Below, piece by piece: positions 4,322-37,730 of a stretch of 39,494 bases of DNA. The translations under genes were made by a program, and so were the position numbers. The notes below the pieces were generated by a model. The model did not search any database. It saw nothing but the letters and a program-made list of their open reading frames with translations, and had not been told where the DNA came from. Source of the stretch: an uncultured Candidatus Berkelbacteria bacterium (GTDB lineage: Bacteria; Patescibacteriota; UBA1384; CAILIB01); NCBI GenBank assembly GCA_903834195.1, contig CAILIB010000024.1, forward strand, positions 1 through 39,494, read 5' to 3'. How positions within the stretch are numbered: position 1 is the stretch's first letter; each line of letters starts with the position of its first letter.

Positions 4322-4476
4322 GCGGGACTCGATTATAGTTCGCTGCGCGAACGGGCAAGCATGCACATGGTACTCTCGTCCCTCCTGATTCCACTAAAAT
4401 ATGCCCCAATGATTACCTCTGCAGCACTATTCTATTCCAGTGCGAAGCCAGTAATCATTGGGGCATATTTTAGTGG
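4322..4476 (-). repeat. tRNA-anchored palindromic element at tRNA-Leu(UAA) (copy E1)
   Basis: Directly behind the tRNA is a perfect 26-bp inverted repeat (arms 4391-4416 and 4451-4476; 34-nt apical part), the inner arm edge coinciding with the encoded CCA. The apical part contains GCACT/AGTGC pairing and the loop ATTCTATTCC, nearly the same as at tRNA-Leu(CAG). Beyond the palindrome is a decayed inverted T-arm (GGTACTCTCGTCCC on plus). At the far end an 11-nt direct copy of the tRNA 3' region (GCGGGACTCGA, 4322-4332) matches 4485-4495. The insert between is shorter than in other copies, with a GTTCGC/GCGAAC pair. The outer hairpin could also terminate tRNA transcription. Confidence 0.7.
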
Positions 4477-9770: not shown

Positions 9771-9977
9771 AATTAAAAGTACTCTTTGGAGTACTTTTAA
9801 TTTTGCTAAAGAGATGGGACTTGAACAGGAAAGGGGTCGGGAAAACAATTGTTTTCCCGTGAAGGAGAGCAGCGAGTGAAATGAGTGATGAGAACCGTGG
9901 GTTCTCATCTGTGCTCAGGTGAAAGTCCCAGCAGATCGACCAAATTAAAAGTACTCTTTGGAGTACTTTTAATTTTG
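9751..9977 (+). repeat. tRNA-anchored palindromic element at tRNA-Ile (copy E2), bounded by a 55-bp direct repeat
   Basis: A 55-bp segment (tRNA 3' end, CCA and hairpin) at 9751-9805 is repeated exactly at 9923-9977. Each hairpin is a perfect 15-bp stem (AAATTAAAAGTACTC, loop TTTG). After the first hairpin comes an inverted T-arm copy (GGGACTTGAACAGG, 9816-9829) at the same distance from the stem as the T-arm of the real tRNA (11 nt each side). The 117-nt insert has a palindrome GGGAAAACAATTGTTTTCCC and a hairpin GAGAACC/GGTTCTC. This accounts for most of the space between tRNA-Ile and the next gene. Confidence 0.85.
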
Positions 9978-20347: not shown

Positions 20348-21455
20348 GATCACCCTCTTTGAGACTCTTTGGTTAATGCCAAGTATTGCAGTGGCGTAAG
20401 TCGTTGTCCAGGCTTTCCAAGTGAGCGGTGAACACGCTTGGTGTTGTAGAAGGTCATCCATTCAGAAAGTTCTTTGTTGAAGTCCACTGGATCTCCAGCC
20501 AGACTGGCATAATGCCAGTCAAGAAAACTCTCCTGTATGGTTCGGTTAAACCGTTCAATCCACCCTTGGTATTTTGGTTGTTTCACCCAGTTAAAGAAAT
20601 GAGTGAGCTCTGTTTTTTCTGCTGCCTCTCGAAACTCTTTCATGAATTCAGGTCCATTGTCTGTTTGGATGTGTGTCACCTCAAATGGTGCAGCCCTCAA
20701 GAGTTCAGTGAGGAAATCTGCACCATTTCTAGAAGAGGTGGTTTTGTATGTTTTAGAGAAAGCCCAGCGAGACACCAAATCAACTGCTGTGAAGGTATAC
20801 CGTCGCTGTCCCAGGGTGTTAATGAGTACTCCATCCACTTGCAGCAAGTCCCCAGGTTTTTCGGGGATATACCCTCCACGCCGGAGTTTCTTCTTTGGAG
20901 TGAGGTGTTTCTCCGTGAGCTTCCCTGTTTTTCCATGGAGACTAAGTTGAGCTCCAGTGGGAAGCTTTCCAGCTTTCTTTAAGTCATCCACAATACGTCC
21001 CACCGTTGCTTCAGCGGGACATGCAATACCCTGAGCTGCACAAAAATCAACAAGGAGTGGGCGTAGCTTTTCCTTGCCGAGCTTTGGGTACTTTGTTCTC
21101 AAACGAATAATCTCAAGTTCAAGGATATAATGCACCACTCGTTTCTGGTATCCATTCCGATGAGCTTGGCTTTTAGGAATGGGATTCTGTTTCCAGCGGA
21201 ACAAGGTGGCTCGTCCCACGCCAAATGCATCCCTGGTTGCCTTAAGGCCGTGTACAGACCAAAAGGTGAGTATCTTCTCTCTTCGTTCAATTTCCTGCTG
21301 CTGTTTGGTATCCATCCTCCTGGGATACCAACTCTGAGCTAATTGCTCAAGGAGCTTCTTTCCGTTAGGTTCAGCGTGTGCTGCACCCCATGCGTTCATC
21401 TGAAACATTTCAACCTGCTATTTGTTCAGACCAAAAGTCTCATATGAGGGTGATC
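20348..21455 (-). mobile_element. IS481-like insertion sequence, copy 1
   Basis: Bounded by imperfect terminal inverted repeats: GATCACCCTCTTTGAGAC on the left and the complement of GATCACCCTCATATGAGAC on the right. It contains one transposase gene, whose TGA stop lies inside the left repeat. I could not identify a confident target-site duplication. It lies between small RNA copy R2 and the tRNA-Val repeat element. Confidence 0.85.
20350..21408 (-). CDS. IS481-like DDE transposase (rve integrase core)
   Basis: 352 aa from the ORF-track start; an internal ATG at 21315 (MDTKQQQEIERREKIL) is an alternative. An N-terminal helix-turn-helix (KATRDAFGVGRATLFRWKQN) is followed by the rve catalytic core with DDE residues in QVDGVLI, IQTDNGPEF and GWIERFNRTIQESF. 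A basic linker (HLTPKKKLRRGGYIPEKPGD) precedes the core. It has the same architecture as the transposase at 35021-36031 but is clearly diverged from it. The frame is intact, so it may be active. Transposition is by DNA cut-and-paste or copy-out, acting on the terminal repeats. Confidence 0.93.
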   Translation of the reverse strand: MFQMNAWGAAHAEPNGKKLLEQLAQSWYPRRMDTKQQQEIERREKILTFWSVHGLKATRDAFGVGRATLFRWKQNPIPKSQAHRNGYQKRVVHYILELEIIRLRTKYPKLGKEKLRPLLVDFCAAQGIACPAEATVGRIVDDLKKAGKLPTGAQLSLHGKTGKLTEKHLTPKKKLRRGGYIPEKPGDLLQVDGVLINTLGQRRYTFTAVDLVSRWAFSKTYKTTSSRNGADFLTELLRAAPFEVTHIQTDNGPEFMKEFREAAEKTELTHFFNWVKQPKYQGWIERFNRTIQESFLDWHYASLAGDPVDFNKELSEWMTFYNTKRVHRSLGKPGQRLTPLQYLALTKESQRG

Positions 21456-21470
21456 TTTTACATAATGTTT

Positions 21471-21659
21471 CCTAGAGGTAGACGCTCACGTTCTTGTTCT
21501 TTCACCACCTTCGGTGATGTGAAGCGCACTAGAAGTGTTGCGCTAACTTCGCTCTTCGCTTCGCGAAGTTCGGTACAGGCGAAGTCGAACCTGGTTCTTA
21601 ATCTCTAAAAGACCACCAAAGAAAAAAGAACACTAGAAGTGTTCTTTTTTCTTTGGTGG
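21471..21659 (-). repeat. tRNA-anchored palindromic element at tRNA-Val (copy E3)
   Basis: In tRNA orientation: a perfect 22-bp hairpin overlapping the tRNA end (arms 21613-21634 and 21638-21659), then an inverted T-arm copy, then GGTTCGA. A structured insert follows: ACTTCGC/GCGAAGT enclosing CTTCGC-GAA-GCGAAG, linker TTAGCGCAACAC, and a second hairpin ending GTGGTGAAAG. The element ends in CCTCTAGG, a copy of the tRNA 3' T-stem (21471-21478). It corresponds part by part to copies E4 and E5. Confidence 0.8.
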
Positions 21660-21729
21660 GCCCTAGAGGACTCGAACCTCTGACATCCTCGGTGTAAACG
21701 AGGCGCTCTACCAACTGAGCTAAGAGCCC
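21654..21729 (-). tRNA. tRNA-Val(UAC), CCA encoded
   Basis: Anticodon loop TTTACAC in stem CCTCG/CGAGG gives UAC. T-arm AGAGG-TTCGAGT-CCTCT; acceptor GGGCTCT/AGGGCCC with one G-U. Discriminator A, CCA encoded. It is the last tRNA of the cluster and carries element E3. Confidence 0.95.
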
Positions 21730-21914: not shown

Positions 21915-22151
21915 GGAAAGAGGGTGGGACGTTCGCTTCCTTCGGCTTCCGCCACTTCGTGATGTGGAGCGCCTAAGGAGCACTGCACTAACTTCCCTCT
22001 CGCTTCGCGAGCAATGTATTGGGGAAGGCGAACCTGCTTCTCCTCACTCTAGTAGTCAAGTACCAGGTAACAGTGTATTTTCTTTGCCTCCGCAGTACTA
22101 TTCTTTTCCAGTACGAGGACTAGCAAAGAAAAATACACTGTTACCTGGTAC
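21915..22151 (-). repeat. tRNA-anchored palindromic element at tRNA-Leu(CAG) (copy E4)
   Basis: A palindrome with ~28-bp arms and one bulge (22060-22087 and 22123-22151) starts inside the tRNA acceptor. Its 35-nt apical part resembles that of E1: GTACT/AGTAC around ATTCTTTTCC. Then come GGTTCGC and a structured insert (CTTCCC/GGGAAG enclosing CTCGC-GAA-GCGAG, linker TTAGTGCAGTG, hairpin around CCACATCACGAAGTGG, then GCGAAC). It ends in CCTCTTTCC (21915-21923 on plus as GGAAAGAGG), a copy of the tRNA 3' end. The element separates tRNA-Leu from tRNA-Phe. Confidence 0.8.
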
Positions 22152-22231
22152 CGGAAAGAGGATTCGAACCTCCACACCCTTGCGGGCACTAGCACCTGAA
22201 GCTAGCGTGTCTACCATTCCACCATCCCGGC
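22146..22231 (-). tRNA. tRNA-Leu(CAG), CCA encoded
   Basis: A class II tRNA. Stem CTAGC/GCTAG closes loop TTCAGGT (anticodon CAG). T-arm GGAGG-TTCGAAT-CCTCT with the stem reading into TTCCGGT, which pairs with GCCGGGA. Discriminator A and CCA encoded. It lies 30 nt downstream of secG in the same transcription direction. Confidence 0.93.
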
Positions 22232-34588: not shown

Positions 34589-34664
34589 TCCCCGGTAGCT
34601 CAGTGGTAGTAGCGTCTCGCTGTTAACGAGAATGTCGTTGGTTCGAATCCAACCCGGGGAGCCA
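34589..34664 (+). tRNA. tRNA-Asn(GUU), CCA encoded
   Basis: Anticodon loop CTGTTAA gives GUU. T-arm GTTGG-TTCGAAT-CCAAC; acceptor TCCCCGG/CCGGGGA; discriminator G. It anchors the accessory island to its right. The 197-nt gap before it (34392-34588) holds two small hairpins (ACGCTT/AAGCGT and TATTGC/GCAATA) and no gene. Confidence 0.96.
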
Positions 34665-34854
34665 AAAGAAAAGAAGTAGGCGGCTGCCTACTTCTTTTCT
34701 TTTGTTTTACTCGAGAGGATTCGAAACCTGGTTCGACTCTGCCTAAACCTTTTGAGCGAAGCGAAAGCAGAGTTAGTGCAGTGCTTCTTCGCCGCTTCAC
34801 ATCACGAAGTGGTGAAAGGCGGAGAAAGCGAACGTTAGGAAACCCGGGGAGCCA
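34663..34854 (+). repeat. tRNA-anchored palindromic element at tRNA-Asn (copy E5)
   Basis: A perfect 19-bp hairpin (arms 34663-34681 and 34686-34704, loop GGCT) begins inside the CCA. Then comes an inverted T-arm (GGATTCGAAACC) 12 nt from the stem, as in the true tRNA. GGTTCGA and a structured insert follow: ACTCTGC/GCAGAGT enclosing CTTTTG/CGAAAG, linker TTAGTGCAGTG, hairpin GCTTCAC/GTGGTGAAAGGC, closing CGAAC. The element ends in a second tRNA 3' end, AACCCGGGGAGCCA (34841-34854). Confidence 0.85.
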
Positions 34855-34860
34855 CGAATT

Positions 34861-34941
34861 TTCACCACGTTAAACTGGTGATTTTTCATATACTTAAACT
34901 TTTACTAACAGATCAAAAATGGTTCGAATCTAATCGGGATT
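34861..34941 (+). repeat. Island repeat R75, copy A
   Basis: About 75-80 bp conserved with 37131-37211 and more weakly 37656-37730. Order: TCACCA/TGGTGA hairpin around GTTAAAC, a TATACT string, AACAGATCAAAAATGG, and TTCGAATCTAATCGGGA, a decayed copy of the tRNA-Asn T-arm and acceptor. Together with E5 it fills 34665-35020; no gene is seen there. Confidence 0.75.
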
Positions 34942-35001: not shown

Positions 35002-36052
35002 CCTAAAAGATCACCCTCATATGGGACAAAATTGGAAGAGATACCTTCATTCAGCGCACCTCTTTCGTGAAGACCTTGCAAACCTCTCAAAGATTGGTAC
35101 AGGTGAAGGTATGCATACTCAACCTGAACGCGAGAAGATCCTCTTGTTTTGGAAAACTCATGGCCTTGCGGCCACCGCTGACGCTTTTCAAGTTTCCCGT
35201 GCAACGCTGTTCCGGTGGGAAAAGAATCCAACTCCACAGAAACGTGTCCGGCACACCCAAGTGCGTAGAGTCATTCCACCACGTATTCGTGCTGAACTCC
35301 TGAGACTTAAACTCCTCCATCCAGAGCTTGGCAAAGGACAACTCCAACCACTTCTCGCACGGTTCTGCAGCCAGGGTGGTATTGGTATTCCGTCTGAAAG
35401 TACCGTTGGGAGGTATCTAGGAGATTTGAGGAAGGAAGGAGTACTTGGGAAGCCAGTGAGGCTTCGCTTCCATGCTCGTACCGGGAAGCTTGTTGAGAAG
35501 CCAATCGAGAGAAAGGTGAAGCTCCGAAGAAACGGGTATGCACCAGGTGTCCCTGGGGATCTCCTGCAAGTTGATACGGTGGTTACCTTCATTAATGGCC
35601 TCAGGCGCTATACCGTGACGGCTATTGATCTGCCCTCCCGCTTCTCCTTTGCCTGGAGCTATACCTCCTTAAGCTCAGCCACCAGTACCGACTTCTTGAG
35701 GAAGCTCACACTAGCTGCTCCATTTCAGATTCACCGTATCCAAACGGACAATGGACTTGAGTTTCATGGCCTCTTTCAAGAGGCACTTCTTAAGAGTGGA
35801 ACCACCCAATTCTTTAACCGGCCAAGAAACCCAAAGCAGAATGCCTTCATTGAACGGTTCAACCGAACCATTCAAGAAGAGTTCCTCTACCGGAACACTG
35901 ATTCTCTAGCTTATGATCTTCCTGAGCACAACCTACGACTCATGGAATACCTCATCTATTACAATGCTGAGCGGCCACATACTGGCCTCAACAAGAAAAC
36001 CCCGCTAGAATATCTCCAATTAACCCCTTAGTCTCAAATAGGGTGGACGAGT
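35002..36052 (+). mobile_element. IS481-like insertion sequence, copy 2
   Basis: The left end GATCACCCTCATATGGGAC matches the ends of copy 1 (20348-21455), and the right end is the complement of GTCCACCCTATTTGAGAC. A partial extra left-end-like string (ACCACATATGAGAC, 34980s) lies just outside. One intact transposase gene is inside. Exact tips are uncertain by a few bases. Confidence 0.75.
35021..36031 (+). CDS. IS481-like DDE transposase, copy 2
   Basis: 336 aa from the track ATG; the internal ATG of MHTQPEREKILLFW aligns better with copy 1. HTH (ATADAFQVSRATLFRWEKN), a basic region, and the rve core with catalytic QVDTVVT, IQTDNGLEF and NAFIERFNRTIQEEF. The protein is recognisably related to, but diverged from, the transposase at 20350, so the two ISs are not recent copies of each other. 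The intact frame suggests possible activity. It lies in the tRNA-Asn island ahead of the metalloprotease gene. Confidence 0.93.
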   Translation: MGQNWKRYLHSAHLFREDLANLSKIGTGEGMHTQPEREKILLFWKTHGLAATADAFQVSRATLFRWEKNPTPQKRVRHTQVRRVIPPRIRAELLRLKLLHPELGKGQLQPLLARFCSQGGIGIPSESTVGRYLGDLRKEGVLGKPVRLRFHARTGKLVEKPIERKVKLRRNGYAPGVPGDLLQVDTVVTFINGLRRYTVTAIDLPSRFSFAWSYTSLSSATSTDFLRKLTLAAPFQIHRIQTDNGLEFHGLFQEALLKSGTTQFFNRPRNPKQNAFIERFNRTIQEEFLYRNTDSLAYDLPEHNLRLMEYLIYYNAERPHTGLNKKTPLEYLQLTP

Positions 36053-36860: not shown

Positions 36861-37126
36861 CAAATAATAAGACCTTACGGCTGTAAGGTCTTATTATTTG
36901 TTTTACTCGAGAGGATTCGAAACCTGGTTCGACTGCGACGAGTGAGTGAGAATAATTGTGTTTACATAATTATTTGAGCGAACGAGGAAGCTGTATTGCG
37001 AAGCAATACTCTGCCTAAACCTTTTGAGCGAAGCGAAAGCAGAGTTAGTGCAGTGCTTCTTCGCCGCTTCACATCAAGAAGTGGTGAAAGGCGGAGAAAG
37101 CGAACGTTAGGAAACCCGGGGAGCCA
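36861..37126 (+). repeat. Second tRNA-Asn-type palindromic element inside the island (copy E6)
   Basis: A hairpin with an 18-bp stem of new sequence but the same GGCT loop (36861-36878/36883-36900), preceded by a GAGCCA tRNA-end remnant. It is followed by the same inverted T-arm and GGTTCGACT as in E5. Then comes an extra ~75 bp containing AATAATT/AATTATT and TATTGCGAAGCAATA hairpins, after which the sequence is almost identical to E5 through to AACCCGGGGAGCCA (37113-37126). No intact tRNA is attached. With R75 copy B it fills 36795-37240. Confidence 0.8.
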
Positions 37127-37130
37127 CGTA

Positions 37131-37211
37131 AAATCATCAGGTTAAACTGGTGATTTTTCGTATACTCAAACTTAAACTAACAGATCAAAAATGGTTCGAA
37201 TCTAATCGGGA
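37131..37211 (+). repeat. Island repeat R75, copy B
   Basis: Near-identical to copy A: TCATCA/TGGTGA hairpin around GTTAAAC, TATACT, and TTCGAATCTAATCGGGA at the end. The pairing is kept although one arm base differs (T-G wobble). Confidence 0.75.
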
Positions 37212-37613: not shown

Positions 37614-37655
37614 TTATTTGTCTAAACCTTAGAGTAATTGTTTCAGTTCTCTCTA

Positions 37656-37730
37656 AGTTAAACTGGTGACTATTCGTATACTTAAAATATAATCAACAGG
37701 TTATAAGTAGTTCGAATCTAATCTGGTCTG
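37656..37730 (+). repeat. Island repeat R75, copy C (diverged)
   Basis: GTTAAACTGGTGA, CGTATACTTAAA and TTCGAATCTAATC are kept in the same order as in copies A and B; the bases between have drifted. It precedes the broken GrpB gene. Confidence 0.6.

Follow-up and report, generated by a model that had tools for sequence, protein, structure and literature searches.

The question raised by this locus is what kind of element lies behind the tRNA-Val(tac) gene, where a structured insert interrupts a second, partial copy of that tRNA. The window, which is the whole stretch of DNA analysed here, is contig C24 of 39494 bases from a genome, G000, of 1.13 Mb in 46 contigs with an estimated completeness of 76%. 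Its size and gene content point to Patescibacteria, and its best-scoring RecA match in the genome collection, at 65%, is a Berkelbacteria record, which makes this its probable placement. The comparison set consisted of 55 genomes of the class, one genome per species, including G000 and G001, the latter belonging to a second genus of the same family and having an estimated completeness of 100%. It was found that the insert, called type A here, is a folded, non-coding, multi-copy repeat of about 110 nt. Its sense strand is that of its tRNA, minus at 21477-21591 and 21924-22034 and plus at 34730-34840. The type A copies in the window and their surroundings are as follows.

21471 to 21478, minus strand: residual direct copy of the tRNA-Val 3' part, CCTCTAGG (sequence)
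21477 to 21591, minus strand: type A insert behind tRNA-Val(tac), the focal copy (covariance model, 111.9 bits, and alignments)
21593 to 21606, minus strand: revT, a degenerate inverted copy of the T-arm, AGAGATTAAGAACC (sequence; permutation test of revT against tRNA)
21613 to 21659, minus strand: hp1, terminator-like hairpin at the tRNA-Val 3' end (terminator scan)
21654 to 21729, minus strand: tRNA-Val(tac), source of the copied 3' part
21915 to 21927, minus strand: direct copy of the tRNA-Leu(cag) 3' part, CCACCCTCTTTCC (sequence, own-tRNA rank, junction alignment)
21924 to 22034, minus strand: type A insert behind tRNA-Leu(cag) (97.8 bits)
22036 to 22050, minus strand: weak inverted T-arm copy at the tRNA-Leu(cag) locus (sequence)
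22051 to 22145, minus strand: long hairpin 3' of tRNA-Leu(cag) whose loop holds a nested structure, GTCCTCG..TGCGGAGG (sequence)
22146 to 22231, minus strand: tRNA-Leu(cag)
34589 to 34664, plus strand: tRNA-Asn(gtt)
34663 to 34704, plus strand: terminator-like hairpin at the tRNA-Asn 3' end (terminator scan)
34717 to 34728, plus strand: inverted T-arm copy at the tRNA-Asn locus, GGATTCGAAACC (repeat I4)
34730 to 34840, plus strand: type A insert, first copy behind tRNA-Asn (99.9 bits)
34841 to 34854, plus strand: direct copy of the tRNA-Asn 3' part, AACCCGGGGAGCCA (sequence, own-tRNA rank, junction alignment)
37002 to 37112, plus strand: type A insert, second copy in the tRNA-Asn array (88.6 bits; repeat D1)
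37113 to 37126, plus strand: second direct copy of the tRNA-Asn 3' part (sequence)

In the focal insert the order is stem A, a KTAG linker, a long bulged stem B and a terminal CGTC. BLAST detected 14 type A copies in G000, and a covariance model built from 15 copies detected 17 in G000 and 9 in G001 and none in the remaining 53 genomes of the class, so that the distribution is sporadic, two of the 55 genomes. An exact degenerate DNA pattern gave 0 matches in 84,980 species genomes and IMG/VR, a search in which shortened variants, which are present in G001, are missed and in a collection that may omit the records closest to G000. When the window was compared with Rfam models at the gathering score only tRNA was matched and no family was found for the insert, and relaxed thresholds gave nothing relevant to it. 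Two contigs of G001, L051 and L059, have an identical tRNA-Pro(ggg) flank and different type A cores, as could arise from a strain mixture or a tandem duplication.

The stem pairs named in the earlier note, ACTTCGC/GCGAAGT in the focal copy, CTTCCC/GGGAAG at 21924-22034 and ACTCTGC/GCAGAGT at 34730-34840, are all present on the tRNA-sense strand. RNAalifold gave 25 pairs for 15 copies, with two-sided changes in 13 of them. The model-aligned structure of 28 copies comprises stem A (columns 8-13/52-57), an inner hairpin and the long stem B with an extended base. The proportion of paired cells was 93.4% compared to 77.8% in shuffles, and it was about 50% or less when the structure was slid by 1-3 columns, while two-sided changes occurred in 23 of the 27 pairs compared to 12.8 in shuffles, with none of 500 shuffles reaching 23, all of these being values from an alignment that is biased towards the model's own structure. 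Because of this bias a separate tree-based test was written, our own implementation of the R-scape-type test that the earlier note had proposed, in which substitutions were redistributed over the branches of a FastTree tree and all column pairs were scored by a G-test with APC. With 25 copies, three consensus pairs had E<0.05, and the next-best pairs were mostly consensus or inner-hairpin pairs. The covariation therefore exceeds phylogenetic expectation, which supports the conclusion that the folded form of type A is under selection. The earlier claim that the folded form matters is upheld by the shuffles and the tree null alike, and RNA and single-stranded DNA are both compatible with it.

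Other parts of the earlier description need correction. The second stem claimed inside the insert is weak in the copy at 34730. The three-way junction said to be closed by GGTTCG pairing with CGAAC did not hold up: this helix has no pair with two-sided change, its score is not above that of shuffles, and it is broken in about six copies. An extended base of stem B (G-C, Y-R, Y-G, R-Y, Y-G), which pairs in nearly all copies, explains those positions better. This base occurs in two sub-types, GCGCAAC..GTGAGCG and GTGYAGY..GCGAACG, and since the switch between them is largely a single lineage event it carries little weight by itself. The sequence TTAGTGCAGTG, which had been taken as conserved throughout, belongs to one of two sub-types, and the focal copy has TTAGCGCAACAC instead. 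In the alignment the linker is TTAG in most copies and GTAG in a few, and the 3' end of stem B is CGTC in most copies with CGTT, CGCC and TGTC as variants.

What surrounds the insert is as regular as the insert. At each copy the order is a tRNA gene with its CCA, a hairpin, revT, the insert, and a direct copy of the 3' part of that same tRNA, which is at times trailed by another hairpin. All 17 type A copies in G000 are tied to tRNA 3'-end sequence and lie on the strand of the tRNA: 11 behind an intact tRNA gene, two behind a tRNA 3' end cut by the contig end, three as second copies in the arrays of tRNA-Asn, tRNA-Ser(cga) and tRNA-Leu(caa), and one as an orphan between tRNA-Gln-like 3' ends. 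For tRNA genes with sufficient downstream sequence, the downstream copy was scored against all tRNAs of the genome, and the gene's own tRNA ranked first in 12 of 32 in G000 (0.9 expected), 14 of 33 in G001 and 9 of 23 in G004; it did so in 5 of 30 in G002 and 3 of 20 in G003, mostly weakly. In a hand-made table of 27 elements, revT, the direct copy and the tRNA matched their own partner better than in all 5000 permutations. In the permutation test single copies hinted that revT and the direct copy co-evolve beyond their shared tRNA descent, an idea that was set aside, and a pairing like that of R'' and R' arms is not separable because both sequences derive from one tRNA.

The type A junction is between tRNA positions 58 and 59. 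The earlier note had placed the insert in a T-loop copy, and this is confirmed: the left side reads GGTTCGA (58), and in 10 copies, most of them G001 type A inserts, the direct copy resumes exactly at 59. The tRNA 3' part is thus duplicated from the T-loop on, as it is in T-loop tRNA integrative elements. Of 39 direct-copy alignments 12 run past the CCA, one of them, at tRNA-Ile, through the whole terminator, and two fall within the hairpin and are not real starts. Inserts of three further types, B, C and D, which are unrelated to type A, are found at the equivalent type of site, and the window holds these examples.

9815 to 9826, plus strand: inverted T-arm copy of tRNA-Ile (own-tRNA top rank)
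9827 to 9922, plus strand: type B insert behind tRNA-Ile (different sequence, same architecture)
9923 to 9977, plus strand: direct copy of tRNA-Ile positions 57-76 and its terminator hairpin (repeat D3; junction alignment)
4322 to 4385, minus strand: type C-like unit with inverted and direct copies, behind tRNA-Leu(taa) (own-tRNA rank, junction alignment)

Type B occurs in G000 behind tRNA-Pro, -Ile, -Met, -Glu and -Ser(gga), with a variant in G004, and has a common core, GGGAAAGGGGTCG-stem-CGTGGAGGA, in which the stem is CGGGAAAAC/GTTTTCCCG in some copies and CGAAAAACC/GGTTTTTCG in others. Type C, of about 60 nt, and type D were found in G004, and there the direct copy starts at 55 or 56. Since unrelated inserts occupy the same kind of site, the landing plan is more general than any single insert.

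When type A copies of G000 and G001 at the same tRNA were compared they were 60-80% alike, pairs at different tRNAs averaged 64%, and the best match between the genera, 89%, was that of tRNA-Leu(caa) with tRNA-Ala(ggc). Copies were also not separated by genome in the type A tree. Inserts therefore do not track their locus, and as sharing a tRNA mostly does not make copies from the two genera more similar, type A inserts seem, judging from these comparisons, to move between loci. The tRNA-Gly(ccc) copies of both genera are 80% alike and thus some copies may be inherited in place. No clean empty and filled pair at one site was obtained. At tRNA-Leu(cag) in G001 the spacer to tRNA-Phe is about 28 nt and resembles the sequence that separates hairpin from insert in G000, where the insert is present; this is suggestive of an insertion, though a loss could explain it too.

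A possible explanation, and the one we tentatively prefer, is that type A is a folded mobile element of the REP/MITE kind, non-autonomous and specialised on tRNA T-loops. Inserts would pass from one tRNA locus to another, one strand folding while single-stranded. An enzyme acting in trans would recognise the stems, including the KTAG foot and the CGTC end of stem B, and would insert the element at GGTTCGA, a T-loop sequence common to nearly all tRNA genes. The insertion would duplicate the tRNA from the T-loop up to or past the CCA, and the upstream tRNA gene would thereby stay intact while the second copy bears the insert. Cargo, for example a Doc toxin module or an IS481 element with a peptidase-like gene, may afterwards come to lie between resident copies.

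An alternative is that the inserts are recombination sites, either folded strands like integron attC or att sites at which a tyrosine recombinase crosses over in the T-loop, so that the first 3' half, hairpin, revT and insert form a cassette replacing the tRNA 3' half. The T-loop junction does look like a crossover, with a duplication through the CCA and sometimes through the terminator, and revT and the direct copy occupy the places that the R'' and R' arms have in attC. Cargo also lies between tandem sites: the tRNA-Asn array encloses an IS481 together with a peptidase-like gene, that of tRNA-Leu(caa) a Doc-type toxin module, and that of tRNA-Ser(cga) two ORFs of unassigned function. The enzymes do not bear this out. 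The single tyrosine recombinase of G000 is a housekeeping Xer-like one, scoring best as XerD/XerC and far below the integron integrase cut-off, and no integron-type integrase was found in that genome; above the search cut-off G001 also has a single, Xer-like one, G003 has one tyrosine recombinase, and G004 adds one match below that cut-off. Most units are tiny and without a gene, none of the units of 100-300 nt having an integrase ORF inside, and plain site-specific recombination leaves unexplained why each unit has the 3' half of its own tRNA when the insert is common across tRNAs. We consider this alternative unlikely.

With regard to the cargo, positions 408-1005 of locus L008 hold the Doc-type toxin gene and a small upstream ORF, likely its antitoxin, flanked on both sides by the type A copies of the tRNA-Leu(caa) array. 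A further hairpin module, TGCGACGAGTGAGTGAG..GAGCGAACGAGGAAGC, lies at 36934-37013 before stem A of the second tRNA-Asn copy and is also present in the tRNA-Leu(caa) array at about 1430-1505 of L012 on the tRNA-sense strand, which is an equivalent site in the cargo-distal type A copies of both arrays. IS481-like elements adjoin type A copies in the window at 20350-21408 and 35021-36031, by target preference or by chance. By inspection these two have terminal repeats of their own, GATCACCCTCATATGAGAC, they are 50% alike, and no IS481-like transposase was found at any other fetched type A copy. They thus look like neighbours, and IS481-like transposases were rejected as the mobiliser.

Other candidate enzymes were also rejected. 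Mobilisation of the RAYT/IS200 kind was dropped as no Y1 (RAYT/IS200) transposase was found in G000 or G001, the two type A carriers; the single one of G004 has an in-frame stop. A reverse transcription for which the tRNA acts as primer was considered because a start at position 59 is what a retroviral primer-binding site would give, and it was rejected on the grounds that there is no shared reverse transcriptase, with none in G000 and only one of the antiviral DRT type in G001, and that types C and D start at 55/56. The enzyme of G001, at 742-2280 of L243, is DRT4/DRT6-like and shares its contig with tRNA-Val(cac). The reverse transcriptases of L242 and L241 have small Avd-like neighbours, with a variable protein in L242, and by their neighbours those of G004 and G002 look like reverse transcriptases of diversity-generating retroelements. 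Group II introns, retrons and known Rfam RNAs gave no match. The survey therefore leaves no mobiliser candidate common to the carriers except the single Xer-like recombinase, and the search for a mobilising protein that the earlier note had suggested yielded no dedicated integrase, no IS200-type transposase and no shared reverse transcriptase.

It could also be argued that the insert is transcribed, as a structured tail of tRNA transcripts (a trailer RNA, a regulator or a processing signal) kept for its function as RNA. The insert is always on the tRNA's strand, the unpaired linker bases are conserved, and the G-U intermediates lie mostly on the tRNA-sense strand, an excess which fits RNA and single-stranded DNA equally. 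Against this, the insert lies 3' of a hairpin which at tRNA-Val and tRNA-Asn was recognised as terminator-like in scans, and from that hairpin to the insert the scans of these two loci found no promoter-like site on the insert's strand. Roughly half the tRNA genes are without any insert and the unrelated types A to D occupy the same site in others; added to these are the lack of a tie to the locus between genera and of an Rfam match in the window at the gathering score, and this explanation too is improbable. Passive template switching during replication, with fold-back at the hairpin giving rise to revT and GGTTCGA microhomology allowing the insert to be copied from another tRNA locus and the local 3' half to be duplicated on return, is hardly likely, for although it suits the forward-reverse-forward order of the T-arm copies (repeats I4 and I5), the local flanks copied at every site and the failure to find a mobilising enzyme, it does not explain the compensatory conservation of the stems and the fixed 58/59 junction, and it would need a special cause for the near-absence outside two genera.

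If type A is regarded as a mobile element specialised on tRNA T-loops, it can be compared with known systems. Integron cassettes have attC sites with folded complementary arms at the cassette end, and tandem sites carry cargo such as toxin modules; the geometry is alike, but the target of type A is the tRNA T-loop, its insert is conserved in sequence and there is no integron integrase. Islands made in tRNA genes by T-loop tyrosine integrases have their junction in the T-loop and duplicate the tRNA 3' part, and type A units have this junction and duplication in common with them. Unlike such islands, the units are of 100-300 nt, have no integrase, lie behind about one third of the tRNA genes and belong to one insert family across tRNAs. 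Rickettsia palindromic elements (RPE), which are known for the most part from protein genes, are likewise folded palindromic repeats that spread while the host gene is still functional, whereas type A lies in tRNA 3' flanks with a local duplication. The nearest known kind is that of the tagged REP repeats. The GTAG- and CGTC-tagged REPs, which include Rickettsia RPE-4/RPE-6 and Neisseria dRS3, are also short, palindromic, multi-copy and non-coding with a tagged foot, and CGTC-tagged repeats have been reported without a dedicated transposase, as none was seen for type A (PMC3733652). Stem B of type A has KTAG, mostly TTAG and in a few copies GTAG, at the 5' foot and, in most copies, CGTC at the 3' end. 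The tagged REPs have one stem in 20-40 bp, the CGTC-tagged ones with a stem of 8-9 bp and a CCA-like tail, whereas type A has two stems in about 110 nt and, unlike them, is confined to tRNA 3' flanks, amid copies of its host tRNA. For REPINs and BIMEs, mobilisation of a folded single strand by a trans-acting RAYT transposase has been proposed (PMC8266576, PMC3116915), and a folded strand and an enzyme in trans are what we infer here; unlike with those elements, no Y1 transposase was found in either type A carrier. No published description was found in the open-access literature, a scope outside which most subscription papers lie, and type A seems to be a mobile element that has not been described before and has no gene of its own.

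The landing plan, with flanks tailored to each tRNA, is found behind about one third of the tested tRNA genes in three related genera, and type A is a covarying, multi-copy structured element absent from Rfam. A wider reading, which we regard as doubtful, is that types A to D belong to one mobile non-coding class for which the T-loop would be a universal landing site, entry being harmless as the 3' part of the host tRNA is copied, and that tandem copies bracketing cargo would act as a T-loop cassette system in ultra-small bacteria. If type A is mobile, it would land harmlessly in essential genes and could be a route of gene turnover in streamlined genomes without ordinary integrases; if it is RNA, a large share of tRNA loci would have an unrecognised tail.

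Two further sequences were observed beside the tRNA genes. A second small motif, GTCCTCG, a variable stem and TGCGGAGG, is present in the window at 22062-22135 and 4417-4450 and also 3' of tRNA-Leu, -Ser and -Arg genes at L003, L004, L006, L008, L151 and L154. It lies in the loop of a long hairpin that follows tRNA genes, chiefly those for Leu and Ser, in several genera, and the letters of its stems change with complementarity kept. Finally, an 80-nt sequence with a T-arm-like end, GGTTCGAATCTAATCGGG, is present in three copies in the window, at 34859-34938, 37131-37210 and 37647-37726, and these are possibly decayed tRNA-Asn pseudogenes.
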